Shown here in pieces: positions 2,871-57,105 of a stretch of DNA of 61,058 nucleotides. This DNA comes from Beroe ovata (lineage: Eukaryota > Ctenophora > Nuda > Beroida > Beroidae): assembly GCA_946803715.1 (NCBI GenBank), contig CAMPET010000016.1:52909-113966 (forward strand). The letters run 5' to 3'. The number at the start of each line of letters is the position of its first letter. The first letter of the stretch is position 1. The translations under genes and the position numbers were made by a program. The notes beneath the pieces are model-generated. The model did not search any database, was not told the DNA's origin, and saw nothing but the letters and a program-made list of their open reading frames with translations.

Positions 2871-3497
2871 ACGTGGCAGTAACGTGATAGAGTTTACACG
2901 TGCTATATACGGAGAGATAAGAACTCTCGATTAATAGACACGAATATTACATTTTAACTCCTATTATACGAAAGCCCTCGGCTATGAGGTACAGGAACGA
3001 TCAGTTTGAGTGTCTAGAGTGCTATGCTTGATTCTGAGTGTATATTTGATGATATTTGGATCGATAGGTGCAATCTTTATTGATGTTTATTCCCTGTAAG
3101 TCTTGTTCTAAAATCTAGATGATAAATTTGCAACTTACAAACATGCGTTGATTATTTAGCTCTCTGATGTTATTTGTACTTGTAGCCTTCTTACTTATTG
3201 ATATGTTATGCCAAGAATGCAGTTGTTTTAATTCTCCTAAATTATCTGTGACTTGAAGAACGAACCGCGCCGCGCGCAAACGCAAAATATCATCACTGTG
3301 AATGATGGTGCACTAAACACCGTGTTTGAGGTACTAACTGAAATAAAATCTGCGGTATTTACAATGTGTCACGTCTCAAGAACTGTTAAAATCGCAACTC
3401 ATTGTATGAGTATCCTGTATCTCGCTGCAAATCTGTGCCCACAATTGCACTGTCCAGTGTCCAGTGTTCATGATACGTTGAGCAGAGACACGCTGAT
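2871..3497. other. Intergenic stretch between convergent genes
   Basis: This gap separates the stop of the CDP-diacylglycerol synthase gene (+) from the stop of the 475-aa gene (-). It should hold both 3' untranslated regions. I find no open frame with exon-like boundaries or recognisable RNA gene here. Confidence 0.6.
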
Positions 3498-6400
3498 TCA
3501 CGTCTGTGCAGTCAGCTTCCCCTTCTTGAAGCGCATTTTGAACCAGATGCCAAAGAAATCCTCGTGGACACCCAGACCCTTCTGAATAACAAACTGAAAT
3601 ACGCAGATGATGATGCACTCAGCTGGGACAAACTCGCAGACACTCATCACAATTCAATACAATTCTTGTCTTGGCTTACCCTGATAGCATATTGATAGTG
3701 TGGCTGCAGGACATAGTACACAGGCATGCACAGGGTCAGATAGCATAACTTAGCCTGTTGTGGAATGTGGAGGACGGTTTATTGTATTGAGTAAGTGACT
3801 AAGAGAAGGATTGCTTGCATTACTCTATTATAACAGTTAACACCATACCTTGAGTGATTTGATCTCGTCAGTAAGGTCGGTCTGTGAGTATCTCTCAAAC
3901 TGGGTCAGCAGACTTGCCACTGTGGGGTCATCACTACACTTCTTCACGTCCAGGTCGTTAAGTGCGTCAACATACCTGTCAGTGTCAGAGCTGTGACGAG
4001 TTTCACCCAATTTCCTGATATCACTCTTCAAACATTGATTTTTGTTAATCTTTTTAATTCCAAACTGAGTCGGAATGAAAAAGAACCGACACTTACCAGT
4101 CTTGTTTGGAGCTCGTTTTTACACTATCTAGATCAATGATTCTGCTTGATCTATCAACTCTCCTCACGTCGACCATTCCCAAACTGAGTGTGGGAGCGTG
4201 TTTCAAGGCGTGGAACCGTCGTACAAACTTGACTCCTTCATCCCTGAAAAATCGCTAGAATAGAGGACTCTGACGCGAGAGAGTGAGACGATGCACTGCG
4301 GTCAAGAAGTGAAGTCAAACATCAAGTGAATTCTGTTGATGTGGGAGTAGGATGAATGGAAGATTTTGATTTGGTGAAGACATGTTGGGACTTGGGACAA
4401 AAAATAATGACATCTTATGAAATGAATAAAATCGTTGTTGGGTTGAAATGACATTTACAAGGTTTATATAAATCGAAATAAATCTGAAACGTAAAAGACG
4501 CACAATATTATGAAAATGGTTCAACAATAAATCAATCAGTTCAAATAGAGTTAGATCAGTCAGTAAGATAGTTCGCGATGCTGACTTAAACCGTCAGTCA
4601 AGTCTGTTAAAATTGAGTCACTTCACATGTGAATCTTGTTGAAGAATTTGTTGACGTCCGATTCCAACCAATCATATTCGTGTCCCTTGCTCACAACAAG
4701 AGCGTCCATGACTTGGTATAAGACGTCTTTGAACCGCTGCATGTCACTAGAATACATCTTGTAAGCTCGGTTGAGGCTAGTTGCAGCCTTCCTCTTCTTC
4801 TCGACCTCACTCATACCATCACACACCATTTTCAGGCCCTGGTCAGCAACTTCACATCTCAAACTATCAGGCTTACAACAGAATGGAACATGAAGGGCGG
4901 GAGCAACGCTAACTGCTCCCATGTACCTCCTGACACTGAAACAGTTGGGGTTCTCAGACACACAGTCGCATTCTCCGCTGTGAAGAATAACACCATTGCC
5001 TTGGTCGAGCAAGTTCTGTCTCTGTTCTGCTTTCAGCTCTCTGGCAGCCCTTCTCACTAGAGGGGGAGGGGTGTTTCGCTTCGCCACTTGTTTCTGGATA
5101 GCTGCATTCCTGGCAAGAGCTGCCTTGTTGAGAATTGCTCTCTGTTTCTTCACGGGAACAGCTGGCTGCTCGGACATCAGCTTTGCTCTTTTCTCTGCAA
5201 GCTCTAACTGCTCGGCGACATCAACAGAAGTCTGATAATCTGGCGATGTTGAAGAGGGTGCTGTGGTATTCAGACCTCCGGATATCATCTGAGCCAACCC
5301 CTCAACAATGTGACGTCGATCATTGCTATTTAGAATATCCGCAATTTGACCACTTCCTCCAATTTTCAGTCTTGGAGCTTTCACCTTAGCGATAATGTTC
5401 TTGAATGTCTTCTTCTTTCCCGGGAGTTTGGGAGCTTCCTGTACAGTTGCGTACGACTTTTGTGTCCTCGGAGTAGAGGTCTTCATGACTTCCAGTTTCC
5501 TGAGACTATTCAATGTAGATCTGACGCCTCTCTTCGGTTCCGCCCGGACGGCTTTAACATTTTTTGCACCCGGCAATCTTGGAGCTTTGTCAACAGTGGC
5601 AAAGGGGGCGGCTGGTCTGGTGTATCGGTTCGCAGTTCCGGATCGCACTGCTTCCTGCCTCTTCTTGGCTGCTGATGTCTCGACTACGGGAGTGTTCCTG
5701 AGAGCACGAGCCATCGCAGCAGCAACATCTTCCCTGGAATATCTCTTCCCTGGGAGGGGAGGAGCGGCGACAGCGGAGGTGTTGGCAACTCTGTTCTTCG
5801 CAGCTTCTCGGGCAGCAGCCGTGTGTCTGTTTCGCATCACCACGTTCCTGGATTGCTTGACAACATCTGAACTGCGTCTTGACATCCTCTTCCTTATTTC
5901 GTCCATACTGATCTTCCTTCCTGGTAACTGGCGTGGGGTATCGGCCATTTGATTTTGACGAGGAGTCACAACAGTGGCTCGTTGTCGCACTTGGACGCCT
6001 CCGGCAGATGGCACAGATCGACTTCTCGTGGAGCGATAGTTTGATTTTCTGACGGGAGTCATCTCCTCCAGTCTAGGGATTCCACCTTGTTGTCGGACTA
6101 CTCTAGGTCGGGCAGCTGCTCTCTCAGCTGTTCTCTGAGATCGGACAGCAGGGACGGATCTGCTCCTGGTGGAACGGTACTTGGTTGGCTTTATTCGAGG
6201 CATATCCGTCAGACTCGGGATTCCACCCTGCTGTCTGCGTGGAGTAGTGACGGGGGCCTGATTTCGTCTGGGTTTGGTAATACGCTGGAACACCGGCTCC
6301 TGACTCTTTACTCGTCGAGCTTTGCGTCTGAAACTAGGGAGTTGGCTCAATGGTGGGATTCCCCTGGGTTGCCGTGTAGTTCTGGGAGTCACATTTGGCT

Positions 6401-9400
6401 GAGGTCGCAGAGCTCTGGATCGGGATCGTCCCTCACTGGTGTCACTGGTTACAGATGATGTCCGGGGCAGATACCTCGATGGGGCAGATCTCTTGGGTTT
6501 AACAGGAGGGAGTTCATTCAAACTCGGTATTCCGCGATTCAGACGCTTCGGTGTTACAAAGTCCCGGCCTTTATACGCTGCTTTCCGCAACATGGCACTT
6601 GAGTTAGACCTTGGCTTGATTGGCTTGTAAGTGATCTCTTTGATTTCACCTAACGCCCCCGATCCATGCTTGAATTTCTTGATCTCATTTTGCAGTTTTT
6701 GCGGTATTTTCTTGGTATATCTCTTCCACAAAGCATTACGATCAAAGCTGCTCAAGAAGTGTGAGAGATTTTCATTGAACGGATCTCCGTCCTCATCAGA
6801 GTCAGCCTGTACGCGGGTGTTGTTGAAGAAGTCGTCGCTTTCATCGCTCTCGTACTCCTCCAGGTATTCGTCAGGTCTGCTCATCCTGCTCAGGAAGCCG
6901 TCGTATCCGGCGTTCCTCTCTCCGTACTGAGGTCTCATCACAAACTCTTCTTCATCCTCCTCAACAGCCGAACTTTCAGGCTCATCCCTGACGCAACTGT
7001 TGATGAAATTCCTGTACTGGGTCTCCTCGAATATTCTGTCCAGTTCCTCTGACGTCTGGTACGATGAAATGGCCGGGTCACTGCGTGATTCAGGAACATA
7101 GTAGTCATCGGAATGATAGCCTTCATAGTCGTCAATATCCGGCAAATCTATACACAACTCGTCTTCATATTCGGTTTCGTACTCTTCTCCGATCGAACAA
7201 GCGTATTCATCCTGGATGAATTCGAACAGCTCCGGGTCTTCTTCCATCCCGGAATAGTCGATCAAATTGTGGCTGCTCATTTTGGTGAATGTGGATTGTT
7301 AAAATCTTGTGACAAGACTGAATGACATACACTGAAATGGGGAGGTGATCTTGTGAGATGATTGATATGGTGAATGAAATATCTATCGATCAATGAAGTA
7401 TTACGATAATCGAAAACAGACAGGAAAATCGAACTGTGAACTGGTAGCTGGCACTTGGAACAAAGAGAATGAAACCACACAACCAATGATGATATATTGT
7501 CATGGAAATGAATCGTGAATAATAACATTGGGTGTGGAAAACAGATGTAAAATCATCAATGAAACTGAAATATTTGATGAATATTCAAATGATAAATCTA
7601 AAACGAAATGAAAATAATAACTCTTCTCTACACTGATGATGAATGACTCAGACCTATTCGAAGAAGCATTCCTTAAAAGCGTTTAGCACGATGGCTATCT
7701 CTTCATCTTTATCATCTGCCATTCTTGCCCGAAGAGCGTCAACAAAGACTCCAGTATGTTTGTAGAGCTGGTATCTGGCTTCTTTGAGAGGTTCCATCAA
7801 GTTCTTTATATTCAGCATTTCCTCATCCAGTTCAGATATCTCCTCAATAATCTGGTCGACAAGCTCAGTTGTCTCCTCCAGGGTAGTACATTTGTCCGGA
7901 TCCTCAGAGCAGCACGTCCTCGCAGCACTGCCCAGTTGCACCTTGACAGACCCCGTGAACTTGTCGATAACGGCACAAGTTTCCTCGCTATCCTCAGGAC
8001 ACCTACACTTGTAACAGTGGAGTAGAATGCCCTGGGCATCGTCATCAACCAACATCCGATACGGTACCACTTCCTCTCCCTTCAGTGTGGCTTTGTGTTT
8101 TGCCCAGTACTTGAGAGCTTGTTTCAGAGGCCGACTCTCGACCGGGACTTCGGTTGTCGGTTTCTTGGCGGGTAAAGATCGGCGGGGACTCTTCCTCACG
8201 GCAGGAGCGGCCTGGTTCAGATCCAGAGTGTCATTCTTCTTCTGTTGACGAGTTCTAGGGGTGTCGACTATGACATCTACAATCGGGTAGAGTTCGTCAG
8301 AATCGGCTGCGGGAAGTGGCTCAGTTTGGTTCATCTTCAAAGCGGGAACAATTTCCTGATCAGAAGTAGGTAACAGAACCTCGTTATCACTCATATCCAC
8401 TCTCTTGGTTACATTAAAATCCTAGGAAAGTGATGTGATTATCAGGGATGAAGCAAGGAATGAGTACATAGGGCAACAAGTTCGTACTATAAATAGAACA
8501 GTGTTCAACAAAATCAAATCGACGACAGCAGTGCTGATAAAAACGAAAAACGGCCTGACTGACATCATACGCTGAGCAATCAAGAAATCATAGCACTAAG
8601 AACAACTTGGGCTCGTTCAGTCGGATTCTGAAATAATGTAATCTAGGATATCTCGTAACATCTCGTTCTCCTTCACAAGTTCCTCGTTCTCTGATTCCAC
8701 TTCTTCCAATTCTGCCTGAGCAGAGGCTAGCTCCTCATAACACTTCAGTGCCAGGGCATCGAATTCTCGTTGTTTCCGTTTCAGAGCAGCTGCGAGGATA
8801 GTGATCTCACTTCGACTCAATCTGTCACTGGGCAGTGGCTTTACTCCTCTCTTGCCGCTCTTCTGTGCTGGCCTAGGGCTCAGTACTGACGGCTGCTCTG
8901 TGTCTTTGACGGTTAGACTGTCATGCAGAGCCTCCGCAATACAATCAACTGTGTCCTTGCTCTCAGCGTCAGGGCAGGTGACTCGGCTGCGTTGGTCCTC
9001 TGAGGTCACTTCATCAGCAGTGATTTCCTCATCGACTTTCTCTTCAAACCCCTCTTCTGCTTCGTAGAAGTCATCCTTCAGGGAATGGCCTGCTTTGAGG
9101 GTCTCTGGTGTAGGTGATCTGGAGTCTGAGTGACTCATGGATCTGTCCAATTTCTACATCGACATCAACCTAAGTAAACACTTGTGAAGTGAGAAATAAA
9201 GGAGAAAGCATGGGCTTCACAACAATGGAAAACAATGATCGAGACTCAAAAGTGCGACATTGCAGACGGATGTTCAAGTCAAAAGCATAATAATGTTCAT
9301 GAATCACAGATTTGGTGTATATACAAGTTAAAAATGGTCGAACAAACACACAACAGACCGAAATTTCTATAAACAAAACTCAAGCAATAAAAGTTAGTGA

Positions 9401-12400
9401 TGATAAATCTGAAGTATCGTTAAAGAAGTCTAAATGATGTGGATAAAATCGTATGAAAGGTGAAGTTGACACATGGTGTGGTTGGAACTCACTGTTCCTC
9501 ATCTCTATTGAGCCACTTGTTGAAGTATCCCTTCAACTTGGGGTTCACCCGATCTTTGATAGGTACACTGTAGTCTGTATCATCTGGAGCTCCGGTATAC
9601 TCATCAGCAAAGAAGTATCTCACATCAGGACTGTGCTTGGTGTCCTTTGTTTTGAGATACTGATCGATGAAACCAGCCAGTTTGGGGTTCACAGCACCAT
9701 AGTGCTGCTTCACTCTCTTCTCCAAAACCTCAAACTCGTCCTCCCCCTCGGCTATGGGCTCCTCCTCCAGCTCCTCGTACGTTGGCTCTTTGTACGGCAT
9801 CTTCATCCTCCCCTCCAGGATTCGGAACATGAGCTCCTCGTAGATGCTTTTGTACTTCTCGGGATCTGGCTGCTCTCTGTTTGGGTACATCCTATCTGGG
9901 TCGTTCTGGTAGGCGGCCGCCTCCTTAGCCTCAAGCTCAGCCGCTTGCTGGGCTGCTTTTTTAGCTGCACTCAGGACAAGACGTCGTGCCTCCGCTTCTT
10001 CAGCAGCTTCCTTCTTCTTCTGATAAGTTTCCAGCTTCGACACAAAGGCATCAGTCCTGGGTTCTGACCTGTCTTCCTGCAGGGCATAGAGTCTGGGGAG
10101 GAGGGTCGCAATGAGAGCAGGGGCGGCTTCTATGTCACTCATGGTTCTGGTAAAGTCTCAGTCTGGTTGTTAGTGGTGTATTGACATGTGTCCTTGTGAT
10201 ATGGCGGAGTGTGAATGTGATGTGAAAAAGTATCAGACACGGAGGAAAAGTATTGAGTGAATGACACTGTATTCAAGTGAATAGCGAGCTCGAGTAAAAC
10301 GATTATATCCATGAATCATTAAAATCTTAAATCATCTCACTCAAAATTAGTGATCAAAAGACATTCGTGGCAAGATTTTAAAAACCAATGCTAAGCATTT
10401 TGAAGACAATGAGATAAATTGTTTTCTACAAGTTTCTTCAAATGGAACATTTCTCTGTCCTTATCAACACGTATGTCTAACTTCGATATTAGTGAAGCCT
10501 GGATCTCTAGGAATCTCGCGAATTGAACACGACAACTGGAACAGAGTTTAGTGGCCACAATCCCATTTTGAGTCTTGGTATCAGGATAGCAGTTCATAGA
10601 TTTGCCAAAGTGAAACTTGTTCAATCGATCGAAGAGATCGCGAAGGATCATCCTCCGTTTACATAGCCATTCATTTACATTGACAGAGCTAATATCTATC
10701 GGCTGATAATTGTTTGTGGGTATCGAATTCTTGTTTTCAAAAGGTGTAAGCACCTCCTGTATGACATCATCAGATTGTGATTGAGACAGAGACTGAATGG
10801 GACAGGGCACTTTATCCTCACTTTGTCGAGGAACAGTTTGACAAGCTTTGTTCAGAAACTGATATTGGACAGAAGGGCAGTTTGACATGAATGTTCGATC
10901 ATTGTAACCCAGACTGACCACCTCACTTAACGGGACTGATTTGGAATCTTTGACAAGACTGTCATTAGAGGTGTGTTGAGCAATACTCGAGTCATCTCTG
11001 ACAACATTATCATGAAAACTGCTGATCTTGTTTGATGATCGCATTGTCAATGACGACTGATCTGACTGGGAAATGTTTAATATTGACTGTGGCGTGTCTG
11101 AAGATGTGGTTCTCTGTGGAGATCGTGAAGAATGCGAACTATCAGACGAGAATTCCTCTTGGAATGTCACAGAGCGAGGCTTAAGCAGTTTTGGCATTGT
11201 GATCGATCCTCTACTGTCTTGTTTCAGGCTACTGAATGTTGAAAAGTCACTTGAGACATTTTTGGAGACATTGACAGACATACCCGAATCACTTTTGAAG
11301 GATGGCTGACTCGATCTCCATTGAATGGAACGATGTGAATCATTCCTATGAGTCATATCTTCATAAGTGGACTTTGCAATGGATGGGCTAGATTGCACCG
11401 AGTTGCTGTAACCGAAAGAATCTTGTTTCAGAACGACTGATTCCGATCCACTCGATTTGCTAGATTTCAGTGTTACCTGACCCGACCCAAGTGACTGTTG
11501 AGTGAGGTCATGTTCTGATAGTGTATGTTGAGATATAGATTGTTTGTCATTGATACTCTGTCGATTGAACGAGTCTTCAGATCTGCTAACATCGCTCCGA
11601 ACTGGTTTGATTGGGCCAGGGTCTAGTGGAGATGGATTCATGGTACTATTTGCTCGTGGCTCGCTGATGAACCCAGATTGGTCTGAATATCGAGGTTGAA
11701 CATCTTGGAATGAGACTGAGCGCGAGTTAGACCGAGACGAGGAACTTTTCAGTGAAGACTGAACCGGGGAATCGAGATGATTGGAGTCTGCATCCTCCAC
11801 AAGGGACTGAGGGCCTGATGGGCTGCTTGACAAGCGAGATGGTGTTTTCGATAACACCCGGTTTACAAGCGATTCCCTGTGTTTGTCGGCATAGGCAGAT
11901 TCAATTCTGTAGACAAAGTCATCATCCATAGGATGCTGTGAAATGTTTGAGGTTGTTCCACTTGGCAAACTCATAGAGTCACTTGGTTCTGAATGTTGCG
12001 ATATGTGAGAGCCACCTTGTTTTGAATTTTGTGATATGTTCGATCTTATCGTACTCCTCAAACTCGGATTGGGTACCACATCCTTGACACCACTCGCCGT
12101 TCGTGATTGTGGACTTACAGATGGCACAGATGGGCTGCTTGAAATGCGAGATGGAGTGCTAGATGGAATTCGATTCACATGCGATTCTCTGTGTTTGTTG
12201 GCATAGACAGATTCAATTCTGTAGACAAAGTCAGCATCCAGAGGATGCTGTGATATGTTTGAGGTTGTTGCACTTGTCAAGCTCATCATGCTACCTGGTT
12301 CCGAATGTTGCGATTTATAAGAGCCACCTTGTTTCGAATGAATACTTTGAATCGGAGTTAGCAACTCTTGAACTATTTCTTCAGACTCAACTGTTGGAAC

Positions 12401-15400
12401 AATAGGACCGCTAACTTGTCCCATATTCCTCTGACTCCCTTGTGATACAGTGGAATTGTTGTTATTCATGGAGATCGCATGAAATGAAGGGAGTGCTTCA
12501 GCCTCAATACTTTCAAGAGACGTCAAGACCCTATCCGACGGTTGACTGCGTTGTTTCGGGAGAGAAACACCTCTACCAACATCAGTTTCTGTCTCACTCT
12601 TGCGAGATTGCACTCTTGTGAGTGATGGGAATTTAGGTAGAACCTCAGCCTCGATTCGCTCTTCAGATTCAAATATCTGACCGAGAGATGGGACAGATTT
12701 CGACATTTCAAGGACAGCCTCTTCTTCTCCCTGGGGCATCTCAACGGATAGTTGAGAACGTGAGTTAACTTCACCATGACCAACATCAGTTTCTGTCTCA
12801 CTCGTGCGAGATTGCACTCTTGTGAGTGATGGAAATTCAGGTAAAACCTCAGCCTCGATTCGCTCTTCAGATTCAACAATCTGACCGAGTGATGGGACAG
12901 ATTTCGACATTTCAGGGACAGGCTCTTCTTCCTGAGGCATCCCAACAGATAGTTGAGAACGTGAGTTAACTTCACCAACAATCAGAGCAAGAGACGGGAC
13001 AAAATTGACCCTTTCCTCCTCTTCCCCATGAGGCATCTCAACAGATTGTTTAGACGGTGATTTAACCTTGATCTTGAGCGAAGATGATGTCAAATCAGCA
13101 TTTGAACTTATTTTCCCTGAATGTGAAGAAAGCCTTCCCTCAGATGACATGGTTCTGTTTCCTGACTCAGATGTGCCAGAATTTGTCTGGGAAATTCCCG
13201 ACCGCGACCCCCAAGGGGGGCGCGCGCTGGGAGTGTGGGAAGGTTTTAGAAGAATTCTGGAAGACTCAAAGTTTTCGAGCTCCTTGTTGGATGATGATAA
13301 CTGATCTCTTGATTCCTCAGCTGCCATTTCAGACTCGAGGTCCAAGGTCTCATTATCTGGGACAATTAGCTGAGGAATATTTGCCATAGATCCATGCCGT
13401 GAAGAGTGCCGATCACTCGACAACTCCCCATTGTTTTCAAGAGAAACTCGAGACTGTCGAACTGAACTTTTCCGTTCACTGAGACCGAGGTCCTTGTCAG
13501 AAGAAGCCTGATTGGGCAAACTATTCTGAGAGGGCGTGCTGGATCGAAATGATTTGGCGGAACTGATCAGAGCAGATAGTGACTTCTTGGAACTGGCTCT
13601 AGAGGAACGGGATTGCTTCAGTGTCAGTGAGTTCCTACTAGTTTTATCAGGAGTGTCTGCTAGATCTTCATCTAAAATATCTGACCCACTTTTGTGAGCC
13701 GGAGAATCAACAATCGGCTGCTCCTCCTCATTAAAATCACCATTACTATCCATAATGCATCTAACGCTAATAAAAACGTTGGATATTAGTTTAAACATCT
13801 CATAACGCGGGAATAATCGTTAGAATAATCGTGCCTGCTACCAGTTCATAACGTTCATAAACCACAAAAATAAGAGTAGAACTGAAAGAAAAAACAAACA
13901 CCCACATGCAGAATGAGACACAAACTTCACAATCTGACCTGATGGTTGATCTGTAGTAACTTGATCTTGATTGACTCTATCAATTTGTTACAGATTGAGA
14001 GAGAGAGAGCTGAAATTGAGTACAGTTTTAAATCTATTATATGGTAAGAGGCGTACGGAAGCAAGAATAAAGGAGACCTTATTGCTAGACCCAGGAGAAT
14101 ATCTCACCTCTGTTAGTTATAGACTTAGAGAGATCAATCCTATGGCACTGGAGGACAGCAGCTAACATCAACTTCTCTGAGGGTCATATCCCACTTTTCC
14201 AAAGACTAGTAACGCTATATACGGTGTTACGGGTAAAGAACATGGGTTAGGATCTCACCTAAACACTCGCCGTAGTCGAATATGGAGGTGTGTATCGAGC
14301 TTTTCCTGCATTGCCACAAAATCTTTCCGCAGATTGAGGAGAAATTCTTGATCTTTCGCTTCCGGACTGAGGGATGAGTGAGTCACACTTGGAGCTAGGT
14401 CACAGGAGTATAGGTCACAGAAACATGATATGCGAGAGAATTCAGGTGTTACCTATTCAGTTCTCTTTCGGTTGCTTCTGAAAATAGATGTCGGATCAGT
14501 TATTTCATGAAAGACCGCCTTAGACGCAATCAGGAACACGCATTTCACGTTCGTATAAATACCATTTTCAGTTGAAACAGCCATTGACTCATTCTCTTGT
14601 CGTATTTTCTGCCAAGGAGGAATGCCTTCGTTCCAGGAGAAACTGGTGAGCGATAACATGTTATGAGTCAAGTTATCTGTCAAATTAGAGTGAATGGTCT
14701 CAAGCTCACATGACAACCTCATCTTACCCTCTGGATGGAGCAACATCCGGCAACACTTTATCACGAGCAATCGAGTTGTTTTTCTCGTCTCCCAAGTTAT
14801 ATGTTGAATCTTTGTCTCGATCTTGCAGTGAAACTCGCTGAAATAGAGCAAATATTGTCATATTTCTAAAGAAAGATTTCACTGATTGAATTGAAAGAGA
14901 GCATGTGTTCTTCACCTTCCCCTTCAAATCCCTATTCTTTATGTTGAGAAGGGCATTGAGAACATATATGAATGCTTCGAGTCGCCTTATCACTCGCTCT
15001 TTCTTGATACTGTGACGTTCAAAGTGTTACTGGATGCCTAAGTATACACTGGATGCCAAAGTTTACACTTGAAAGTCTGACTACCTGTCAATTGCAGAGG
15101 GCTCTTTGATGCTCTTTTCTTCAATCAAGCCTGTCTCGGATGCTTCGTCGGCGTTCTGAGGATAGCATCGATTAAGGAATCACATATTTTCTTTGATTTC
15201 GGCATTGAAAGTTAGGAAACTTACCGTTTCATAATCAGAGTCAAGAATCTCAAAGTACTGTTTGGTACCACGTGTTGCTGACACTCGCTTGTTCGTTTTC
15301 TCCACAGCCGCTGATAACTGATTGAAGCCTGCAACGGAAATATTGCAGAAATTGAACATGTGCGCGCGGCTCTTCCTGTCACTGTAAGAGCTGACAAAAA

Positions 15401-16585
15401 GTCGTTAGTATGAAACAAAATTTGCGCGCATTCCAATAAAACTAAGAATGTGGCAAAATTTTCCATGGCACACTACTGCAACTTACCAGTGGATTGTATC
15501 TTTGGCCAGTTTTGGTCCTGTACAACGAATGTCTGCCGTCTACGTCTGCTCTTTCTTTGTTGCTCAACTTCAGGTTCAACAATGAGATCTTCATATGTAG
15601 CTGTGCCTCTCTTTGACTCTTGCTGCGAAAAATGGACAAAAATGTAAACTTAGAACTAGAAATTGGATTTTGAAGAAAAAGTGAAAGAGAATGAGTCGAT
15701 TTTTAATGCAGCTTCAGTCATTGTTCAGAATGTGCATTCTATGCCCACAAATAAGTGGTCGAGTTCATAAGACGTTTACTTTTTAATGCTGGAGTTCATT
15801 TTCATCATTTTGTTGACTTTTTTCCAACTTTCTCAACTTCAACTATCAGCAATCTTTTCTTTAAACGGATATAGACGAGAAGAATTTGGCACAAAGTAGG
15901 CAAAAACAAGCACGTGTGGACTAAACTGAGAAAGAAAATTTCAGAAAGTCACAGTTACTCCTTCATAAATCGTTCGTGATAAGATTTTTTTTCTAAGACC
16001 GATTTTTCATGCCATACATTTTATGGCTTCGCAATGCTAATATCCGTTTCATATCAGCATTATTTCTCACATTGATCGATTTAAAAGCAACTCACATTCA
16101 GTCGAATGATAGGGAAAACGACTTTAGTCGCAGTCTTCCATTTCCCAATATGACCTATCGCCGGTTCTTGTTGTTCATTCTCGTTGATCTGATTGTTAAA
16201 GTTGGCGAGTGTCAACTTTTTGGGGTCGAGAACAATATCTCCAAGTGTGCGATAAGGACTTGTGACTGAGGAGGCGTGGCCACAACCGAAATAACGGCGT
16301 TGACGCACTAATCTCGAATCTTGTTTCGTCTTGTCGCTATCTGTATAAAACTGGGTAGGTCAGCATCAAAGTATTTCGTAGGCTCTGATACTGTGATAGG
16401 TACTGTAATATCACAAAACGGGAACAATTGCTACCTTTCAGTTTGTAAGGTTTCTCGATATACTCAAATCCGTTTCTGCAGGTTACTTTCTCGCGAATGT
16501 TGGTATTTGGGGCAGGAATGACATATTTGCTCTTAATATTGTTGAAGAAGCGATTCAGATCTTGCTTGTCGAATGCTTTCTCCAT
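3498..16585 (-). CDS. 475-aa protein of unknown function, host of a nested gene cluster
   Basis: Eleven exons on the minus strand join in frame: 16435-16585, 16096-16340, 15487-15622, 15225-15328, 15085-15155, 14916-15009, 14728-14837, 14259-14366, 4097-4243, 3849-4014 and 3498-3593. Each junction has GT-AG ends, and intron phases match throughout to give 475 residues plus TGA. The start reads MEKAFDKQDLNRFFNNIKSK. The protein is basic and hydrophilic, has a Lys/Arg cluster (RKSRRRRQTF) around residues 155-164, predicted helices around residues 236-330, and no signal peptide or membrane span. I do not recognise the family. Intron 8 (4244-14258, 10 kb) contains five intronless same-strand genes. 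Linking exon 8 to exon 9 across it rests on matching phase (AG|G) and on the lack of any other 5' exon for exons 9-11. If that link is wrong, there are two separate genes here. Confidence 0.65.
4244..4622. other. Spacer at the 3' end of the nested cluster
   Basis: AT-rich stretch between exon 9 of the host gene and the stop of the 885-aa gene. It begins with the acceptor of host exon 9 (AG read on the minus strand at 4244-4245). It presumably carries the 3' untranslated region of the 885-aa gene. No further exon is supported. Confidence 0.5.
4623..7280 (-). CDS. Nested intronless gene: 885-aa acidic/basic repeat protein with C-terminal CxC-CC domain
   Basis: Single open frame, not recognised as a known family. 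Residues 1-175 are strongly acidic (Glu/Asp/Tyr-rich). Residues 200-740 are very basic with RS-type stretches (STRSRSVP twice) and two short repeat families: GIPxLxxLP/MP at about 250, 307, 353 and 400, and LPGxK at about 452, 509, 569 and 619, the last two inside a longer ATVxxAPxLPGxK unit. The C-terminus has six cysteines spaced C771-x-C773-x6-C780-x20-CC801/802-x6-C809, followed by a helical tail. The same spacing occurs in the next gene upstream (248 aa), also after a G[VI][IL]LH lead-in, so the two are paralogues in this domain. Length, codon pattern and lack of stops over 2.6 kb argue for a real gene; function is unknown. A chromatin, cytoskeletal or scaffold role would be a guess. Confidence 0.8.
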   Translation of the reverse strand: MSSHNLIDYSGMEEDPELFEFIQDEYACSIGEEYETEYEDELCIDLPDIDDYEGYHSDDYYVPESRSDPAISSYQTSEELDRIFEETQYRNFINSCVRDEPESSAVEEDEEEFVMRPQYGERNAGYDGFLSRMSRPDEYLEEYESDESDDFFNNTRVQADSDEDGDPFNENLSHFLSSFDRNALWKRYTKKIPQKLQNEIKKFKHGSGALGEIKEITYKPIKPRSNSSAMLRKAAYKGRDFVTPKRLNRGIPSLNELPPVKPKRSAPSRYLPRTSSVTSDTSEGRSRSRALRPQPNVTPRTTRQPRGIPPLSQLPSFRRKARRVKSQEPVFQRITKPRRNQAPVTTPRRQQGGIPSLTDMPRIKPTKYRSTRSRSVPAVRSQRTAERAAARPRVVRQQGGIPRLEEMTPVRKSNYRSTRSRSVPSAGGVQVRQRATVVTPRQNQMADTPRQLPGRKISMDEIRKRMSRRSSDVVKQSRNVVMRNRHTAAAREAAKNRVANTSAVAAPPLPGKRYSREDVAAAMARALRNTPVVETSAAKKRQEAVRSGTANRYTRPAAPFATVDKAPRLPGAKNVKAVRAEPKRGVRSTLNSLRKLEVMKTSTPRTQKSYATVQEAPKLPGKKKTFKNIIAKVKAPRLKIGGSGQIADILNSNDRRHIVEGLAQMISGGLNTTAPSSTSPDYQTSVDVAEQLELAEKRAKLMSEQPAVPVKKQRAILNKAALARNAAIQKQVAKRNTPPPLVRRAARELKAEQRQNLLDQGNGVILHSGECDCVSENPNCFSVRRYMGAVSVAPALHVPFCCKPDSLRCEVADQGLKMVCDGMSEVEKKRKAATSLNRAYKMYSSDMQRFKDVLYQVMDALVVSKGHEYDWLESDVNKFFNKIHM
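7281..7653. other. Spacer between nested genes
   Basis: 373 bases, AT-rich, between the start of the 885-aa gene and the stop of the 248-aa gene on the same strand. It must hold the 3' end of one transcript and the promoter or 5' leader of the next, unless the genes are co-transcribed. No exon or known motif is visible. Confidence 0.5.
7654..8400 (-). CDS. Nested intronless gene: 248-aa protein with CxC-CC domain
   Basis: Unrecognised. The N-terminal 50 residues are acidic and loop-like; residues 65-80 are basic (RKSPRRSLPAKK). A cysteine domain follows with C129-x2-C132-x-C134-x7-C142-x20-CC163/164-x6-C171, the same frame of spacings as the C-terminus of the 885-aa neighbour, including the GILLH lead-in and a GSVKV segment matching GAVSV there. 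After it come about 75 residues of predicted helix rich in Glu and Leu, ending KECFFE. The pattern suggests a metal-binding or disulphide module plus a coiled-coil-like tail, but no ligand can be named. Spacing to the flanking nested genes is 373 and 216 bases. Confidence 0.75.
   Translation of the reverse strand: MDMSDNEVLLPTSDQEIVPALKMNQTEPLPAADSDELYPIVDVIVDTPRTRQQKKNDTLDLNQAAPAVRKSPRRSLPAKKPTTEVPVESRPLKQALKYWAKHKATLKGEEVVPYRMLVDDDAQGILLHCYKCRCPEDSEETCAVIDKFTGSVKVQLGSAARTCCSEDPDKCTTLEETTELVDQIIEEISELDEEMLNIKNLMEPLKEARYQLYKHTGVFVDALRARMADDKDEEIAIVLNAFKECFFE
8617..9150 (-). CDS. Nested intronless gene: 177-aa protein with C-terminal coiled coil
   Basis: Unrecognised small protein. The first 75 residues are acidic and disordered-looking. 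A short basic linker (KSGKRGVKPL, around residue 97) precedes residues 110-173, which form a long heptad-patterned helix (LAAALKRKQREFDAL, then AELEEVESENEELVKENEML), a convincing coiled coil. It lacks the cysteine domain seen in two neighbours. The likely biochemical property is dimerisation or oligomerisation through the helix. It sits 216 bases downstream-side from the 248-aa gene and 338 from the 217-aa gene, all on the same strand. Confidence 0.7.
   Translation of the reverse strand: MDRSMSHSDSRSPTPETLKAGHSLKDDFYEAEEGFEEKVDEEITADEVTSEDQRSRVTCPDAESKDTVDCIAEALHDSLTVKDTEQPSVLSPRPAQKSGKRGVKPLPSDRLSRSEITILAAALKRKQREFDALALKCYEELASAQAELEEVESENEELVKENEMLRDILDYIISESD
9151..9488. other. Spacer between nested genes
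   Basis: 338 bases of AT-rich sequence between the 177-aa and 217-aa genes. No open frame with exon-like boundaries or recognised element is visible. Confidence 0.5.
9489..10142 (-). CDS. Nested intronless gene: 217-aa cysteine-free protein with a C-terminal doublet
   Basis: Unrecognised. Residues 30-80 form an Ala/Glu/Lys-rich single helix or coiled coil (KKKEAAEEAEARRLVLSAAK). Residues 118-145 are acidic (YEELEEEPIAEGEDEFEVL). The C-terminus carries two copies of one motif, VNPKLAGFIDQYL at 151-163 and VNPKLKGYFNKWL at 199-211, separated by an acidic, aromatic linker. The protein contains no cysteine. The duplicated VNPKLxGxxxxxL unit looks like a binding helix used twice. The start codon is the first ATG of the frame (MSDIEAAPAL). 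Confidence 0.75.
   Translation of the reverse strand: MSDIEAAPALIATLLPRLYALQEDRSEPRTDAFVSKLETYQKKKEAAEEAEARRLVLSAAKKAAQQAAELEAKEAAAYQNDPDRMYPNREQPDPEKYKSIYEELMFRILEGRMKMPYKEPTYEELEEEPIAEGEDEFEVLEKRVKQHYGAVNPKLAGFIDQYLKTKDTKHSPDVRYFFADEYTGAPDDTDYSVPIKDRVNPKLKGYFNKWLNRDEEQ
10391..13753 (-). CDS. Nested intronless gene: 1,120-aa Ser-rich protein with two internal duplications
   Basis: Long uninterrupted frame, unrecognised. I start it at MDSNGDFNEEEQP (13753) rather than at the upstream Met at 13798, because the intervening residues are unlike the acidic start of the neighbours. The body is extremely rich in Ser, Gln and short charged runs and should be disordered. Two units are duplicated: one of about 65 residues containing SRSQLSV.MPQ...SVPSLGQI and FPSLTRVQSR (about 12970-12580), and one of about 70 residues containing SNISQHP and FVYRIES (about 12335-11815). 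The last 100 residues are different: a folded-looking, cysteine-containing, helical segment (WLCKRRMILRDLFDRL, then LCSSC, then helix). That tail may be a distant relative of the cysteine domains of the 885- and 248-aa genes, but the spacing does not match. Confidence 0.75.
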   Translation of the reverse strand: MDSNGDFNEEEQPIVDSPAHKSGSDILDEDLADTPDKTSRNSLTLKQSRSSRASSKKSLSALISSAKSFRSSTPSQNSLPNQASSDKDLGLSERKSSVRQSRVSLENNGELSSDRHSSRHGSMANIPQLIVPDNETLDLESEMAAEESRDQLSSSNKELENFESSRILLKPSHTPSARPPWGSRSGISQTNSGTSESGNRTMSSEGRLSSHSGKISSNADLTSSSLKIKVKSPSKQSVEMPHGEEEERVNFVPSLALIVGEVNSRSQLSVGMPQEEEPVPEMSKSVPSLGQIVESEERIEAEVLPEFPSLTRVQSRTSETETDVGHGEVNSRSQLSVEMPQGEEEAVLEMSKSVPSLGQIFESEERIEAEVLPKFPSLTRVQSRKSETETDVGRGVSLPKQRSQPSDRVLTSLESIEAEALPSFHAISMNNNNSTVSQGSQRNMGQVSGPIVPTVESEEIVQELLTPIQSIHSKQGGSYKSQHSEPGSMMSLTSATTSNISQHPLDADFVYRIESVYANKHRESHVNRIPSSTPSRISSSPSVPSVSPQSRTASGVKDVVPNPSLRSTIRSNISQNSKQGGSHISQHSEPSDSMSLPSGTTSNISQHPMDDDFVYRIESAYADKHRESLVNRVLSKTPSRLSSSPSGPQSLVEDADSNHLDSPVQSSLKSSSSRSNSRSVSFQDVQPRYSDQSGFISEPRANSTMNPSPLDPGPIKPVRSDVSRSEDSFNRQSINDKQSISQHTLSEHDLTQQSLGSGQVTLKSSKSSGSESVVLKQDSFGYSNSVQSSPSIAKSTYEDMTHRNDSHRSIQWRSSQPSFKSDSGMSVNVSKNVSSDFSTFSSLKQDSRGSITMPKLLKPRSVTFQEEFSSDSSHSSRSPQRTTSSDTPQSILNISQSDQSSLTMRSSNKISSFHDNVVRDDSSIAQHTSNDSLVKDSKSVPLSEVVSLGYNDRTFMSNCPSVQYQFLNKACQTVPRQSEDKVPCPIQSLSQSQSDDVIQEVLTPFENKNSIPTNNYQPIDISSVNVNEWLCKRRMILRDLFDRLNKFHFGKSMNCYPDTKTQNGIVATKLCSSCRVQFARFLEIQASLISKLDIRVDKDREMFHLKKLVENNLSHCLQNA
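13754..14258. other. 5' flank of the nested cluster within host intron 8
   Basis: About 500 bases between the start of the 1,120-aa gene and the donor side of host exon 8. A promoter for the nested cluster would be expected here. No host exon with compatible phase is visible. Confidence 0.4.
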
Positions 16586-16949
16586 CTACTAAGAAATCAA
16601 GTTGTTATCAGGCAGCGATCGCTTGAGCATAACTACGAAAAAAAAACAAATTTTAATTTAGTCTGCTTATCGCTAAGAAGTACCTAAATCATGAATTGAA
16701 ACTCGTTTCCCTCAAATAGGGATTAGAAAGCTTACTCTTAGATCCTTGTGGCATTGAGTGATATAAAATAAGTTCATAATATGACCGCAAGTGAGCTGTT
16801 TATTGGATAAGTCCTTGTCTTTGTTGATTTAAATACCATTCAACCAGGATATCAGTATCAAAATCTTCCAGCTTCCTCTTCATCCATCGGAATCGATATT
16901 CGATATGTCACACTTCACAACTTGATTATAATTACTGAGATTCTATTCT
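16586..16949. other. 5' flank of the 475-aa gene
   Basis: AT-rich sequence upstream of the start codon at 16585 and before the satellite array. It should include the promoter and leader; no individual element is clear. Confidence 0.4.
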
Positions 16950-19430
16950 CCCCGGAGGGAAATTGGTTTCGTAAGTGCTATTGAAGTCTTCATTAGAGAC
17001 CTCGAAAAACGAAGAAAAAAAGTGGGAAGTTCGCTGATTACATTTTCTACCATACTGAGATCAGAAATTGGACGAAAATTTTTCTGCCAGATTTTAATGC
17101 AAATACCATCAATTCCTATGTATTTTTGGACGCTGAATCGATTTCCGATCGAATTTTGACCCTATCTTGCTTCCCTGAGGAACTGTACGTCATGTGATTT
17201 CGAACCTCACATCTGAGAAGAAATTGGAACTTTTACCGACTTCCCGACAAGCTAGCCCCAAAATTCCACCAGAATCGGATTCTGCGTCAAAAAATAGGCC
17301 AGGAACACCTATTACTAGTTTTCGTTCTGAGAAAAAAATTTTACCGATTTTGGTGTCCCACTGATTTTCGTGTTTTTTGTAGGTTTTGCTCCCACGGGTT
17401 TGAAAATGAACTTTGGGCGTGGTTCCACGGAAAATATGAACCCGATATGATCATAAAAAGGGTAGAAACTTATAGTCTGAGAGTAGGAGAGATGATTTGG
17501 TGGAAAATTGGTTTCGTAAGTGCCATTGAAGTCTTCATTGGAGACCCCNCGGCGAGTATGAACCCGATATGATCATGAAAAGGGTAGAAACTTATAGTCT
17601 GAGAGTAGGAGAGATGATTTGGTGGAAAATTGGTTTCGTGAGTGCCAGTGAAGTCTTCATCAGAGACCTCCAAAAACGACGTATAAAAGTGTGGAGTTCA
17701 TTGATAACATTTTCTACCTTACTGAGATCAGAAATTTGACGAAAATTTTTCTGCCAGATTTTAATGCAAATACCATCTACTCCCATGTAATTTTGGACGC
17801 TGAATCGATTCCTGATCGTATTTTGACCCTATCTTGCTTCCCTGAGGAACTGTACGTCATGTGATTTCGAACCTCACATCTGTGAAGAAATTGGAATTTT
17901 CACCGACTTCCCGACAAGCTAGCCCCAAAATTCCACCAGACTCGGATTCTACGTCAAAAAATAGGCCAGGAACACCTATTACTAGTCTTCGTTCTGAGAA
18001 AAATATTTTACCGATTTTGGTGTCCCACTGATTTTCGTGTTTTTTGTAGGTTTTGCTCCCACGGGTTTGAAATCGAACTTTGGGCGTGGTCCCACGGCGA
18101 GTATGAACCCGATATGATCATGAAAAGGGTAGAAACTTATAGTCTGAGAGTAGGAGAGATGATTTGGTGGAAAATTGGTTTCGTGAGTGCCAGTAAAGTC
18201 TTCATCAGAGACCTCCAAAAACGACGTATAAAAGTGTGGAGTTCATTGATAACATTTTCTACCTTACTGAGATCAGAAATTTGACGAAAATTTTTCTGCC
18301 AGATTTTAATGCAAATACCATCTACTCCCATGTAATTTTGGACGCTGAATCGATTCCTGATCGTATTTTGACCCTATCTTGCTTCCCTGAGGAACTGTAC
18401 GTCATGTGATTTCGAACCTCACATCTGAGAAGAAATTGGAATTTTCACCGACTTCCCGACAAGCTACCCCAAAAATTCCACAAGATTCGGATTCTACGTC
18501 AAAAAATAGGTAAGGAGCACCTATTACTAGTCTTCGTTCTGAGAAAAATATTTTACCGATTTTGGTGTCCCACTGATTTTGGTGTTTTTTGTTTGAAATC
18601 GAACTTTGGGCGTGGTTCCACGGCGAATATGAACCCGATATGATTATGAAAAAGGTAGAAACTTATAGTCTGAGAGCAGGAGAGACGATTTGGTGGAAAA
18701 TTGGCTTCGTGCCAGTGAATTCTTCAATAGAGACCTCTAAAAACGAAGTATAAAAGTGTCAACTGATTACATTTTCCACCATACTGAGATCAGAAATATG
18801 AGAAAAATTATTTTGATTAATTTCTATGCAAATTATTGATTCCTATGTATTTTTGGTAGCTGAATCGATTGCCGGTCGAATTTTGACCCAATCTCGCTTC
18901 TCTGAGGAACTTAATATCTTCTAACCTCACATCTGAGGAGGAATTTCAATTTACCGCTAGTTATCCGACATCGTCCTGAGAAAAAATAATGGACCAATTT
19001 TGGTGTCTCACTGATTTTCGTGTTTTTGCTGGTTATGATTCACACAGGTTTGATATCGAACTTTGGGCATGGCTTCATGGTGAGTATGAACTCGACATGA
19101 TCATAGAGAGGGTGAATACTAATAGTTAAAGAGTAGGAGAGATGATCTGGTGCAAAATTGGTGTTGCAAGTGCCAGTAAAGTCTTCATTAGAGACCTCCA
19201 AAATTGGAGTATAAAAGAGTGGAGTTCACTCATTACACTTTATCCCGTTCTCAGATCTGAAATCAGAAATATGAAGAAAAATATTTTGGCAAATTTCCTT
19301 ACATATGTCATTGATTCCTATGTCTTTTTGGACGCTGAATCCAGATGGAATTTCAACCCTATCACGCTTCCCTGAGGGGCTGTTGGTCATGTCACGTCAA
19401 ACCTTACATGTGAGTGGAATTTACAAAAAT
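16950..19430. repeat. Decaying ~546-bp tandem satellite array
   Basis: The landmark GGAAAATTGGTTTCGT recurs at about 16957, 17501, 17622, 18169, 18700 and 19150. Two complete intervals are 544 and 547 bp, giving a unit of about 546 bp. Each unit also carries TGAGATCAGAAAT, GGACGCTGAATCGAT, CTTCCCTGAGGAACTGTACG and GACTTCCCGACAAGCTA. The copies between 16957 and 18600 are nearly identical; those after 18600 are progressively diverged. A single N at 17549 cuts one unit short and marks a collapsed join. Short open frames in the array repeat from copy to copy but show no protein-like constraint, so I do not call them genes. Confidence 0.9.
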
Positions 19431-21002: not shown

Positions 21003-24000
21003 TCAATATCTTGGTGTAAAGCCTCTCCTCAACTCCACATGCCTGTGACTCCCCATAGGATCATATGGATTTGGTGTCAAGTGAAGGCTGTTTCTGTTGG
21101 GAGAGTTGCCCAATTTTCTCTCCTTATTCCGCTTGTTCTGGAACCAATTCTTGACCTGTATGGAGTTCTAAATCAGAACATAATTAGAACTTGAAGAATC
21201 AGCTCGAGAAAGCTTGGACAACAAAAACTCATTTTTGAGTGTGAATAGAATCTCCCCAGTGTGATAATTACACATGGCAAAGTAAAATTTGACATGTTAA
21301 ACATTCCTCGTGGTCACTGAGAATTTTCCAGTCACTGAGAATTTTCCAGTCTTAAACCAACAGACTGTAATAAATCAAAATGACAATTTGATGCATGATG
21401 TAAATATCTGATCGAATTCGAAATTAGGATGCAACAAAAGTTTACCTGTGGCACTGTCATTCCAAGTTGCCGAGCTATCTCATTCCTCTCTTCGGTACTG
21501 ATGTAATTATTGCTGTTGTAGTTTGCCTCCAATACACTGAGCTGCTGTTGTGAGAACACTGTTTGCGTCTTACGAGGTTTAGACTTCCTGGTTGCCTCCA
21601 CCTGTCCCTGATAACATGGGACTGTTAACACGAGACTGTTAATATGAGACTGTGAACACGAGACTGTGAAAACGAGACTGTTAACACGAGACTGTTAACA
21701 TGAGACCCTTAACATGAGACTGTGAACACGAGACTGTGAACACGAGACTGTTAACACGAGACTGTTAACACGAGACTGTTAACACGAGACTGTTAACATG
21801 TGACTGTTAACATGAGACTGTTAACATGAGACTGTTAACATGAGACTGTTAACATGAGGGTGTATGAAGTTGCATCACTTGCTGTGTATATAGTGTGGTA
21901 TGAAAGGGTGAAGAACTATACTTACTTTCTTGTGTACTGGAATGTTGGAAGAACTCATCTGAGTCCACGATCCCGGTGTATGAGTTCCAAATGTCGGTCT
22001 GAATCCCTCTGAAAACAGATTGAATATTCACTGATGCGCTGATTTATAGACCATGACAAATCGGAATGTGCTCAGAGAGGGTTCACAACCCTAAACTCGG
22101 TCCAAGTACTGAATTTACACGGGAAATCAGGGGTATTAACCTTAAATTATCACATTTCAAGTTCACTAATCCGTGTTCTGTGAGGTGATGGTGCTCATCA
22201 TAAGTATCGGATACATGTTCACAGACTAAGTATCATCTCTGTGGTCACGTGCTCAATGAGAACATGAGAAAATGACTCCTCTGACTGATGTCAGTGAGCA
22301 GTCATAGGATGATCTCAATGTGATGATTCAGTTCGGGAGCCTTGGGTAATCTTTGATGAGAGAGGTCTAAGTATCAGCATGTTCTCAATATATTATATTG
22401 GATGAGTGCAATGGAAATCGCTCATGTTGCCACATTTTTCATTAAAAATAACCACCACTCCCCGACTAAGTTAATCATCAGTTGTGGCCCCCGCCCGGAT
22501 CCCTTTTCTGGGTTCAATATTATACAGGGTCTAATGCCAGGAAATGAGTAGCATTCGTGAGAAGGGGTACTAAAAATTACGAAATTTAATTAAAATACTC
22601 CGAGGAATGATTCTCTTATCATCATTATCAACCTTAATTATGCTCAAATTATCGAAAGGTTTCATTTGTCGCCAAAAATTCATCCCCAAGTACCTAGTCG
22701 ATTGATGAAGTTATCTGCTAACAAAGTTAATTACAGTCGAGTGGTGCCTGCCCCTGTTCGAAATCGCACGCCCAAATGTCCGTACCGTATAATCTGGTTT
22801 CTCCAATAGTGGTAACACCACCAGACTGACACCAGACGATCAGTTGCCGCGGCCGTCACCATCACTCACGTGTGACACCCAAAGTTACGTGACACACGTG
22901 GCACACGTGACTACGGTGTATGAGTTTGTCACTAACTTTTCACATATTGTGCCTGGCTACGCGAGATAACTGTGCTTGACACACAAATCCGTCATGATCA
23001 GCGCAACCAACTGATTATTAGGGTGCATCGTCAATTTATTATAACCGTATTATAACGCTCATGCTCAACCCCCTCCCTACCCCTTCTTCCCCTTGCACTG
23101 TTTAGGACCAGATAAAAGGAGCAGGTGCAAAGCACGAAGCTGCCCTCTGATTGGCTGGGAAGGTCATGAGATCTGAATGGAGGTATCTGATTGGCTGCCT
23201 TGCCAAAGTAACTAACACATACTCAGTACAGTACTTTGCAAATAAGGAAAATGAAGCACGGCCTTGATAAGAGTTAAAATTCCCCAAATTATTTGCGAGA
23301 CACAAGGGTTCCTCAATTTCAGGCAATTGTTAAAACACACACGAGAATTGTGAATATGTGCTATTGGATTGTTAACTGATAAGAATTGCGTCAATTCTGC
23401 TCTGAGTTAAGAAGTGACTGGTTTCAATCGCCAATACGAAACTTTTAACAATGCATTTGATCCAAGTTAAATATTTTAACTTGATTATGTATGTGAGATG
23501 AGACGATAAATTCTTGGAAAGGGACACCACAAGCAACAATTCCCGAGTTGGGTTGTAGGAATGTGAATCTCTGATTCGTGTCTACCCGGTGTTGATTGAC
23601 TCAGCACTGGAAAAGTGCGAGAATCGCTATTTCGGTCGCGCTCCACTGACACGAAGCTCCCCTTATCTTATAGTAGGACTGTTTGGAACCTGCCTTACTT
23701 TGTGGACCTTCTCAGCTCCATACGACTCATATCAGGGTCTGATTTGGGGCGAGTCGGATTCTCTGAGATAAGGTCAGGGCACGCAGATTGGAGGAGAAAC
23801 GGAACATTCATCCATACGGCACTAGTTTGAGACATGGTTCCCCTGAAGTTGACTCACTTATTGATAAATATGCCGGTGTTATAGACAACCATTAATAACT
23901 GCATGCACATATTATATCCGCGCTCTTATCAAATTGATATTCTAGCACCTGCAGAGAATGCCCCATTGTTACTTATCTCCCTAGCCACTCTTTGTTGCCG

Positions 24001-40286: not shown

Positions 40287-40660
40287 NNNNNNNNNNNNNN
40301 NNNNNNNNNNNNNNNNNNNNNNNNNNNNNNNNNNNNNNNNNNNNNNNNNNNNNNNNNNNNNNNNNNNNNNNNNNNNNNNNNNNNNNNNNNNNNNNNNNNN
40401 NNNNNNNNNNNNNNNNNNNNNNNNNNNNNNNNNNNNNNNNNNNNNNNNNNNNNNNNNNNNNNNNNNNNNNNNNNNNNNNNNNNNNNNNNNNNNNNNNNNN
40501 NNNNNNNNNNNNNNNNNNNNNNNNNNNNNNNNNNNNNNNNNNNNNNNNNNNNNNNNNNNNNNNNNNNNNNNNNNNNNNNNNNNNNNNNNNNNNNNNNNNN
40601 NNNNNNNNNNNNNNNNNNNNNNNNNNNNNNNNNNNNNNNNNNNNNNNNNNNNNNNNNNNN
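40287..40660. other. Assembly gap (374 N) ending at a (GT)n microsatellite
   Basis: All bases are N. The right edge opens on GTGTGTGTGTGT (40661-40686), so the gap probably formed at an unresolved dinucleotide repeat. Any exon inside it is invisible. Confidence 0.95.
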
Positions 40661-56469: not shown

Positions 56470-57105
56470 ATGGTTGGTATTTCTCTTCTCCCAGATGAGC
56501 TTCTTGAGAAAATCTGTGTAAAACTGAATGGCTGGACATGTCTCCAATTTGGACTCACATGCAAGCGATTTTATGATTATGTTTTTGCATCAGAATACCT
56601 TTGGTTAATGCTTTCATTCCATGATTATGGATATAAGTTACCAATGGTCTTTGATGCTGGCAATAAAAGGTTGGGCATAACTTACCCTAACCAACACATG
56701 CTATTTTATATGAAGATCTTAACGAAATACTGGAAGTTTATCAAAGATACAGACAAACGAAGGGGAACTAGGGTACTTTTGACTTATGTCAAACTTGTTA
56801 ATGACAAACCTCATCTTTACTGGAGTTTATTAATAAGCCCACCTGAACAAATTGGTTATACTATTTTCAATATATTTAGTTTATCTATTCTTGAGTATGT
56901 AAAACATGAGAACACTGTATTTGATAGTGTACTCTCATTTGATTTGCTTTGTGATCTAAATCCTTACAAATTGATATCATATTCTGAAGATAATAGGTAT
57001 TTTGCTCACATGTTTGATATGCAATGGAGCGAACATATTTTGTCAGCCATTTTGTTATTTGGATCATCATGGCCACCTCATGTACCATTCAAATTGTATA
57101 AGTGA
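56470..57105 (+). CDS. Intronless F-box protein, 211 aa
   Basis: The N-terminus (residues about 5-48) reads SLLPDELLEKICVKLN, then CLQFGLTCKRFYDYVFASEYLWLML, a standard F-box: LPxELLxxI start, a C[KR]xFY/L helix and W near the end. F-box proteins bind Skp1 and bring substrates to SCF ubiquitin ligases. The remaining 160 residues (TYPNQHMLFYMKILTKYWKF, then SWPPHVPFKLYK at the end) match no repeat class I know, such as WD or LRR, so the substrate side is unassigned. The gene is more AT-rich than its neighbours, lacks introns, and is followed by partly similar sequence that may be a decayed copy. The start is the first ATG in frame. Confidence 0.75.
   Translation: MVGISLLPDELLEKICVKLNGWTCLQFGLTCKRFYDYVFASEYLWLMLSFHDYGYKLPMVFDAGNKRLGITYPNQHMLFYMKILTKYWKFIKDTDKRRGTRVLLTYVKLVNDKPHLYWSLLISPPEQIGYTIFNIFSLSILEYVKHENTVFDSVLSFDLLCDLNPYKLISYSEDNRYFAHMFDMQWSEHILSAILLFGSSWPPHVPFKLYK

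Follow-up and report, generated by a model that had tools for sequence, protein, structure and literature searches.

How can a gene be read and spliced past five further genes that lie on its own strand within one of its introns, and what kind of row do those five genes form? The question is raised by a spliced gene, here called the host, on the minus strand of a 61,058-base stretch of DNA (the window, contig CAMPET010000016.1) that is part of a 77.8-Mb genome in 534 contigs. An earlier note on the window had proposed that one host surrounds five same-strand, apparently intronless nested genes, and had asked whether the row is one transcription unit, a set of genes with separate promoters or a former retro-derived cluster. 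The nesting itself is supported by the sequence, through the conserved host join, the coding frames and their 3' flanks. We consider it fairly likely that the locus represents parallel nested intronic genes, that is, a spliced animal gene holding five single-exon genes in one intron, each of which would form its own transcription unit.

The host gene and its 10-kb intron

The host was modelled on the minus strand from 16585 to 3498 as 14 exons encoding a protein of 522 amino acids (aa), with 10 exons 5' of the 10-kb intron and 4 exons 3' of it. GT/AG borders were present at all 13 introns and the reading frame was open throughout. The acceptor of exon 12 was set by alignment with homologues and lies 48 bases downstream of its position in the first-pass model. 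Intron 10, which had been claimed at 4244..14258 with matching phase, proved exact to the base, with a GTGAG donor after 14259, the acceptor TTTTTCAG before 4243 and phase 2 on both sides. The exon count did not stand: the host had been given as 11 exons (1-8 plus 9-11) and 475 aa, an undercount relative to the present model. The remaining 12 introns measure 69-473 bases, and intron 10 is more than 20 times longer than any of them.

Homologues bear directly on whether the exons on either side of this intron belong together. When ~5.8 billion proteins were searched, with scoring confined to the 7,997 candidates that had the most words in common with the host query, three relatives (P0001-P0003) emerged; they match 98-100% of the query at 61, 59 and 45% identity. 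Of the 51 residues spanning the intron-10 join, 37, 38 and 33 are identical in the three homologues, without gaps in any of them, and the Arg whose codon is split by the intron is kept in all three. Since the join is conserved gap-free in 3/3 homologues, exons 1-10 and 11-14 are read as encoding one protein; together with the phase-matched GT/AG intron, this places host exons for a single predicted product on both flanks of the row. The longest contigs of the homologues (1,957, 2,033 and 1,792 bases) carry frames of 514-531 aa, and because these contigs span only 1.8-2.0 kb, they look like spliced transcripts. The exceptional length of intron 10 could be taken to mean that exons 1-10 and 11-14 are two separate genes and that the row is merely intergenic, but homologues that span nearly the whole host protein with an unbroken join leave this reading strongly disfavoured and the least probable of those we weighed.

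No Pfam match above the family cut-off was obtained for the host or its homologues, nor for the nested proteins and two relatives. Membership of DUF4698 was considered for the host and not assigned, the match of homologue P0003 being weak (E 0.0029, 17 bits vs a cut-off of 28.6); searched alone against this genome, the DUF4698 profile gave no match, and the control likewise gave none. The predicted structure of one host homologue was too poor for use (mean predicted local distance difference test score, pLDDT, 36.9). Profile searches of solved structures reached best E-values of 0.062 and 0.11.

Around the host, 16954-19422 holds several diverged copies of a ~545-base repeat, starting ~370 bases before the host ATG; short arrays related to it occur on many other contigs, with at least 179 matches. 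A run of 374 N occupies 40287-40660 and a single N occurs at eight more places, none of them in the host gene or intron 10.

The five frames within intron 10

All five long frames previously noticed in the intron are present on the minus strand, that of the host, an outcome with a probability of 1/32 under random strands. Two of the lengths given earlier changed, the frames of 248 and 177 aa having begun at GTG and TTG; from ATG they encode 246 and 173 aa. Their close spacing was likewise borne out, with the range of 216-373 bases corrected to 222-373: the stop-to-ATG gaps along the row, from gene 1 to gene 5, are 248, 350, 222 and 373 bases. The donor lies 505 bases from the first nested ATG and the last nested stop 379 bases from the acceptor, and altogether 2,077 bases of the intron are noncoding. 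Every other frame of at least 150 aa in the intron overlaps one of the five, on the opposite strand or in another frame. For nested genes 2-5 an in-frame stop lies no more than 30 codons upstream, with no other in-frame ATG between it and the one used; for nested gene 1 a further in-frame ATG, 15 codons upstream, would give 1,135 aa.

Frame length was compared with 200 dinucleotide shuffles of the intron, in which the longest ATG frame, taken over all six frames, was 123 aa in the median case and never exceeded 228 aa. The 1,120-, 885- and 246-aa frames exceed all shuffles. The 217- and 173-aa frames fall within the shuffle range, and their coding status therefore rests on codon use. With a codon-use model derived from 4,105 codons in nine long single-exon frames and z calculated against composition shuffles, the annotated frame scored best of six for nested genes 2-5 (Table 1). 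For the 1,120-aa repeat protein an opposite-strand frame scored slightly higher, its own frame standing above composition shuffles (z 3.8); this frame is ambiguous by codon score and rests mainly on length. In addition, nested gene 4 has two relatives, P0004 (48% identical) and P0005 (45%), over 99% of its length, in which its Cys residues are conserved, and one relative, of 267 aa, comes from a single 1,030-base contig, as expected of a separate messenger RNA (mRNA). By length for three of them, codon use for four and relatives for one, the five nested frames look like coding genes on the host strand. The predicted structure of nested gene 4 was too poor for use (mean pLDDT 42.6).

Judged by eye, the C-terminus of the nested gene 3 product resembles a coiled coil and the product of nested gene 5 is Arg-rich. 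Nested gene 1 contains direct repeats at 12568-12977 (spacing 204, 93% alike) and at 11817-12339 (spacing 312, 84% alike), which suggest internal expansion.

Table 1. Coordinates of the host gene model, its intron 10 and the five predicted nested genes
Feature	Position in window	Strand	Description and evidence
Host exons 1-10	14259..16585	-	GT/AG junctions, open frame, homologues P0001-P0003
Host exons 1-5	16585-16435, 16340-16096, 15622-15487, 15328-15225, 15155-15085	-	
Host exons 6-10	15009-14916, 14837-14728, 14642-14563, 14477-14453, 14366-14259	-	
Host intron 10	4244..14258	-	10,015 bases, phase 2, donor GTGAGATC, acceptor GATTTTTCAG
Nested gene 1	10391..13753	-	1,120 aa, Ser-rich, internal repeats; length far beyond shuffles
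Nested gene 2	9489..10142	-	217 aa; codon use z 8.3, best of six frames
Nested gene 3	8617..9138	-	173 aa from ATG (177 from TTG); codon use z 5.1, best of six
Nested gene 4	7654..8394	-	246 aa from ATG (248 from GTG); relatives, codon use z 7.2
Nested gene 5	4623..7280	-	885 aa; length, codon use z 7.4, Cys-rich module
Host exons 11-14	3498..4243 (4243-4097, 3975-3849, 3754-3680, 3593-3498)	-	stop TGA

Transcription and origin of the row

The 3' flanks of the nested frames were scored with 13 words that are overrepresented downstream of the stops in 26 further single-exon frames from this genome. These came from 28 kinase-type loci, of which 26 were used for the flank words and 27 for the acceptor test given below, the rest being filtered out for a frame shorter than 260 aa or, in the acceptor test, for a start too near the edge. 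The 13 words are the full automatic list; TTTATT and ATTTTA also stood among eight words that had been partly chosen after viewing the flanks. Within 220 bases after the stops of nested genes 1-5 we found 4, 6, 3, 2 and 3 words, and 3, 1, 0, 1 and 2 when the nested flanks were read on the opposite strand; the host, Nup85 and an F-box gene have 3, 4 and 4. Backgrounds independent of word choice had means of 0.92 (146 segments of the window, p 2e-4) and 1.05 (328 segments from other loci, p 3e-4), rising to 1.25 when matched for GC content (244 segments, p 7e-4) and to 1.64 when matched for T content (77 segments, p 0.004); the background on which the words were selected flatters the result (mean 0.73, p 5e-5). 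These counts suggest that the nested flanks resemble gene 3' ends, partly owing to their T-richness. The polyadenylation hexamers AATAAA and ATTAAA did not occur on the sense strand within the noncoding intron bases and were found nine times on the other strand. We considered this absence as a sign of shielding and rejected it, as it is ordinary both against shuffles, where 0.91 hexamers were expected on average (P 0.39), and against the other frames, 19 of 28 of which also lacked them.

A Cys-rich module is common to nested gene 4 (residues 118-187) and the C-terminal part of nested gene 5, with a BLASTP E-value of 3e-6 (16/69 identical) and a moderate hhalign match (E 4e-5, probability 69%). 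Nested genes 1-3 gave no match to the profile of this module, the comparison covering the last 200 residues of the 1,120-aa protein. Given the module that genes 4 and 5 have in common, the row may have grown partly by local duplication.

Under the reading that we favour, of five genes nested in parallel, the nested genes are probably separate transcription units. Each would have a 3' end of its own and a promoter of its own, located within the 222-505 bases that precede its ATG; the polymerase transcribing the host would continue through the whole row, the 10-kb segment would be spliced out as a single intron, and duplication of the kind suggested by the Cys module would have enlarged part of the row. 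Several observations weigh against this reading. Base composition explains part of the flank signal, which is weaker once T content is matched, and separate 3' ends draw no support from the missing hexamers. Four contigs represent the other relative of nested gene 4, and at 3,439 bases the longest is well over what its 231-aa frame needs, so that its source may be something other than a single-gene mRNA. The records of the host homologues carry no transcript label and could represent intronless genes instead of complementary DNA. In addition, querying the protein database with residues 690-885 of the 885-aa protein returned no relative; of the nested proteins, this part and the 246-aa protein were the ones covered.

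A different account, which we think unlikely though more credible than the other rivals, is that the five frames are cotranscribed, perhaps with the host pre-mRNA, and resolved into single mRNAs through trans-splicing of a spliced leader. In spliced-leader operons such as those of nematodes, genes follow one another on one strand, a few hundred bases apart. The present row is like them in strand and in its 222-373-base gaps, but it lies inside the intron of another gene. Trans-spliced leaders are reported from ctenophores and a glass sponge. A strong acceptor-like site, matched in only 1.5-2% of control windows, lies 51 bases before the ATG of nested gene 5, and a moderate one (10-14% of control windows) lies 27 bases before that of nested gene 4; such sites were also somewhat enriched before the ATGs of the 27 single-exon frames used for comparison (p 0.006 within 100 bases, 0.041 within 60 and 0.48 within 30). 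However, although the sites before the nested ATGs seemed regular on inspection, the joint acceptor signal of the five nested genes was unconvincing (Fisher 0.06-0.09; p 0.09, 0.05 and 0.23 within 30, 60 and 100 bases), and the Hormiphora leader was not enriched in the genome, with 6 loose matches vs 13 for the reversed control. Two known leaders were tried in all; the nematode SL1 model gave no match, in a search where the control also gave none. A flank resembling a 3' untranslated region follows every nested frame, which counts against this account, although operon genes can have such flanks. The narrower form of this account, an operon wholly within the intron and fed by the host's own pre-mRNA, in which one primary transcript becomes either the spliced host mRNA or the five nested mRNAs, appears distinctly improbable.

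We give slightly less credence still to the nested frames being alternative last exons of the host, with exon 10 spliced to sites before them, which was checked for the 1,120- and 885-aa frames. When exon 10 is joined to the site TTTTTATTAG, 13 bases before the 1,120-aa ATG, the frame does continue, but an in-frame fit has a chance of 1/3 and an equally good site occurs in 41-44% of control windows; a transcript spliced to the best site ahead of the 885-aa frame would meet a stop at that ATG, and the homologues show the standard exon 10-11 join. Compact, same-strand, intronless frames of unknown kind might recall an integrated virus or mobile element, an origin that we judge very improbable. 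No Pfam match came near the cut-off, the best PHROGs match (E 0.0017) fell in a family whose function is unknown, the two of the five proteins that were searched against viral contigs had no relative there, and no inverted repeat of at least 20 bases was found within 3000-17500; neither hallmark replication, integration or capsid genes nor terminal repeats were detected. A genome search for second copies of the 885-, 246-, 217- and 173-aa genes found none that was convincing, the second match of the 173-aa gene reaching only E 0.64. The suggestion of a former retro-derived cluster gained no positive support either: no repeats of at least 20 bases were found flanking the row, the longest sense-strand A run in intron 10 is 6, and no parent was found for the same four of the five genes. 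Old retro-insertions could have lost poly(A) tracts, flanking repeats and other marks, and the tests for a virus, a mobile element and a retrogene array are negative but partial.

Genome context and known nested genes

Elsewhere in the window, Nup85 is a single-exon gene at 43840-45624 (Pfam E 1.5e-115), ~27 kb from the host start, and the frame at 56470-57105 (+) carries an F-box domain (E 5e-7). Positions 1-45 of the 57 of a homeodomain, probably cut by an intron, are encoded at 21440-21574 (-), adjoining an array of ~18 copies of a 14-base unit at 21608-21858. The genome as a whole gave 87 homeodomain matches, many of them diverged and none Hox-like by eye among the 21 read, and Wnt matches are present; a COX1 search of the genome gave no match. 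With Nup85, the homeodomain and Wnt matches mark the gene content as that of an animal. As its source the annelid Dimorphilus, whose genome paper reports an intact Hox cluster, was disfavoured on the homeodomains read by eye, and a glass sponge on the Wnt matches; a ctenophore was also considered, the Hormiphora leader showing no enrichment. Many kinase domains of this genome sit whole in one open frame.

If the locus is organised as we propose, it offers a clean natural setting in which to study the passage of polymerase through five internal same-strand genes and the removal of a 10-kb intron where its sister introns measure 69-473 bases. It also suggests a route by which duplication could enlarge nests where the genome is compact. 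Annotation programs that do not allow nesting would either break up the host or miss the row.

The arrangement is of a known kind, five parallel genes in one intron being an unusual number, for which we claim no record. Antisense orientation is found in about two thirds of human nested genes; NF1 and MOB2 each contain several nested genes (PMC4394429). These two nests resemble the present one in having several genes per host, and that of MOB2 includes a paralogue group; unlike the present row, the NF1 nest is antisense, and MOB2 spans ~295 kb (PMC4394429). The glass sponge Aphrocallistes vastus resembles the present case in having an animal genome of ~80 Mb, with many single-exon genes and 2,432 nested genes (PMC10282587), whereas another glass sponge, Oopsacas, is reported to be without the Wnt genes that are matched here (PMC10280926). 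In the ctenophore Hormiphora californensis, 2,357 nested genes lie in 1,654 hosts, many of them parallel, with a published four-gene example (PMC8527503). The premise of the earlier note, that nested genes tend to occur singly and in many cases antisense, agrees with the human proportion (PMC4394429) and fits poorly with the many parallel genes and the four-gene nest of Hormiphora (PMC8527503). The Hormiphora nests are like the present one in that genes lie wholly within one host intron, many on the host strand; unlike the published figure (PMC8527503), with four genes in one host, the row described here has five in a single intron, all parallel, single-exon and closely spaced.

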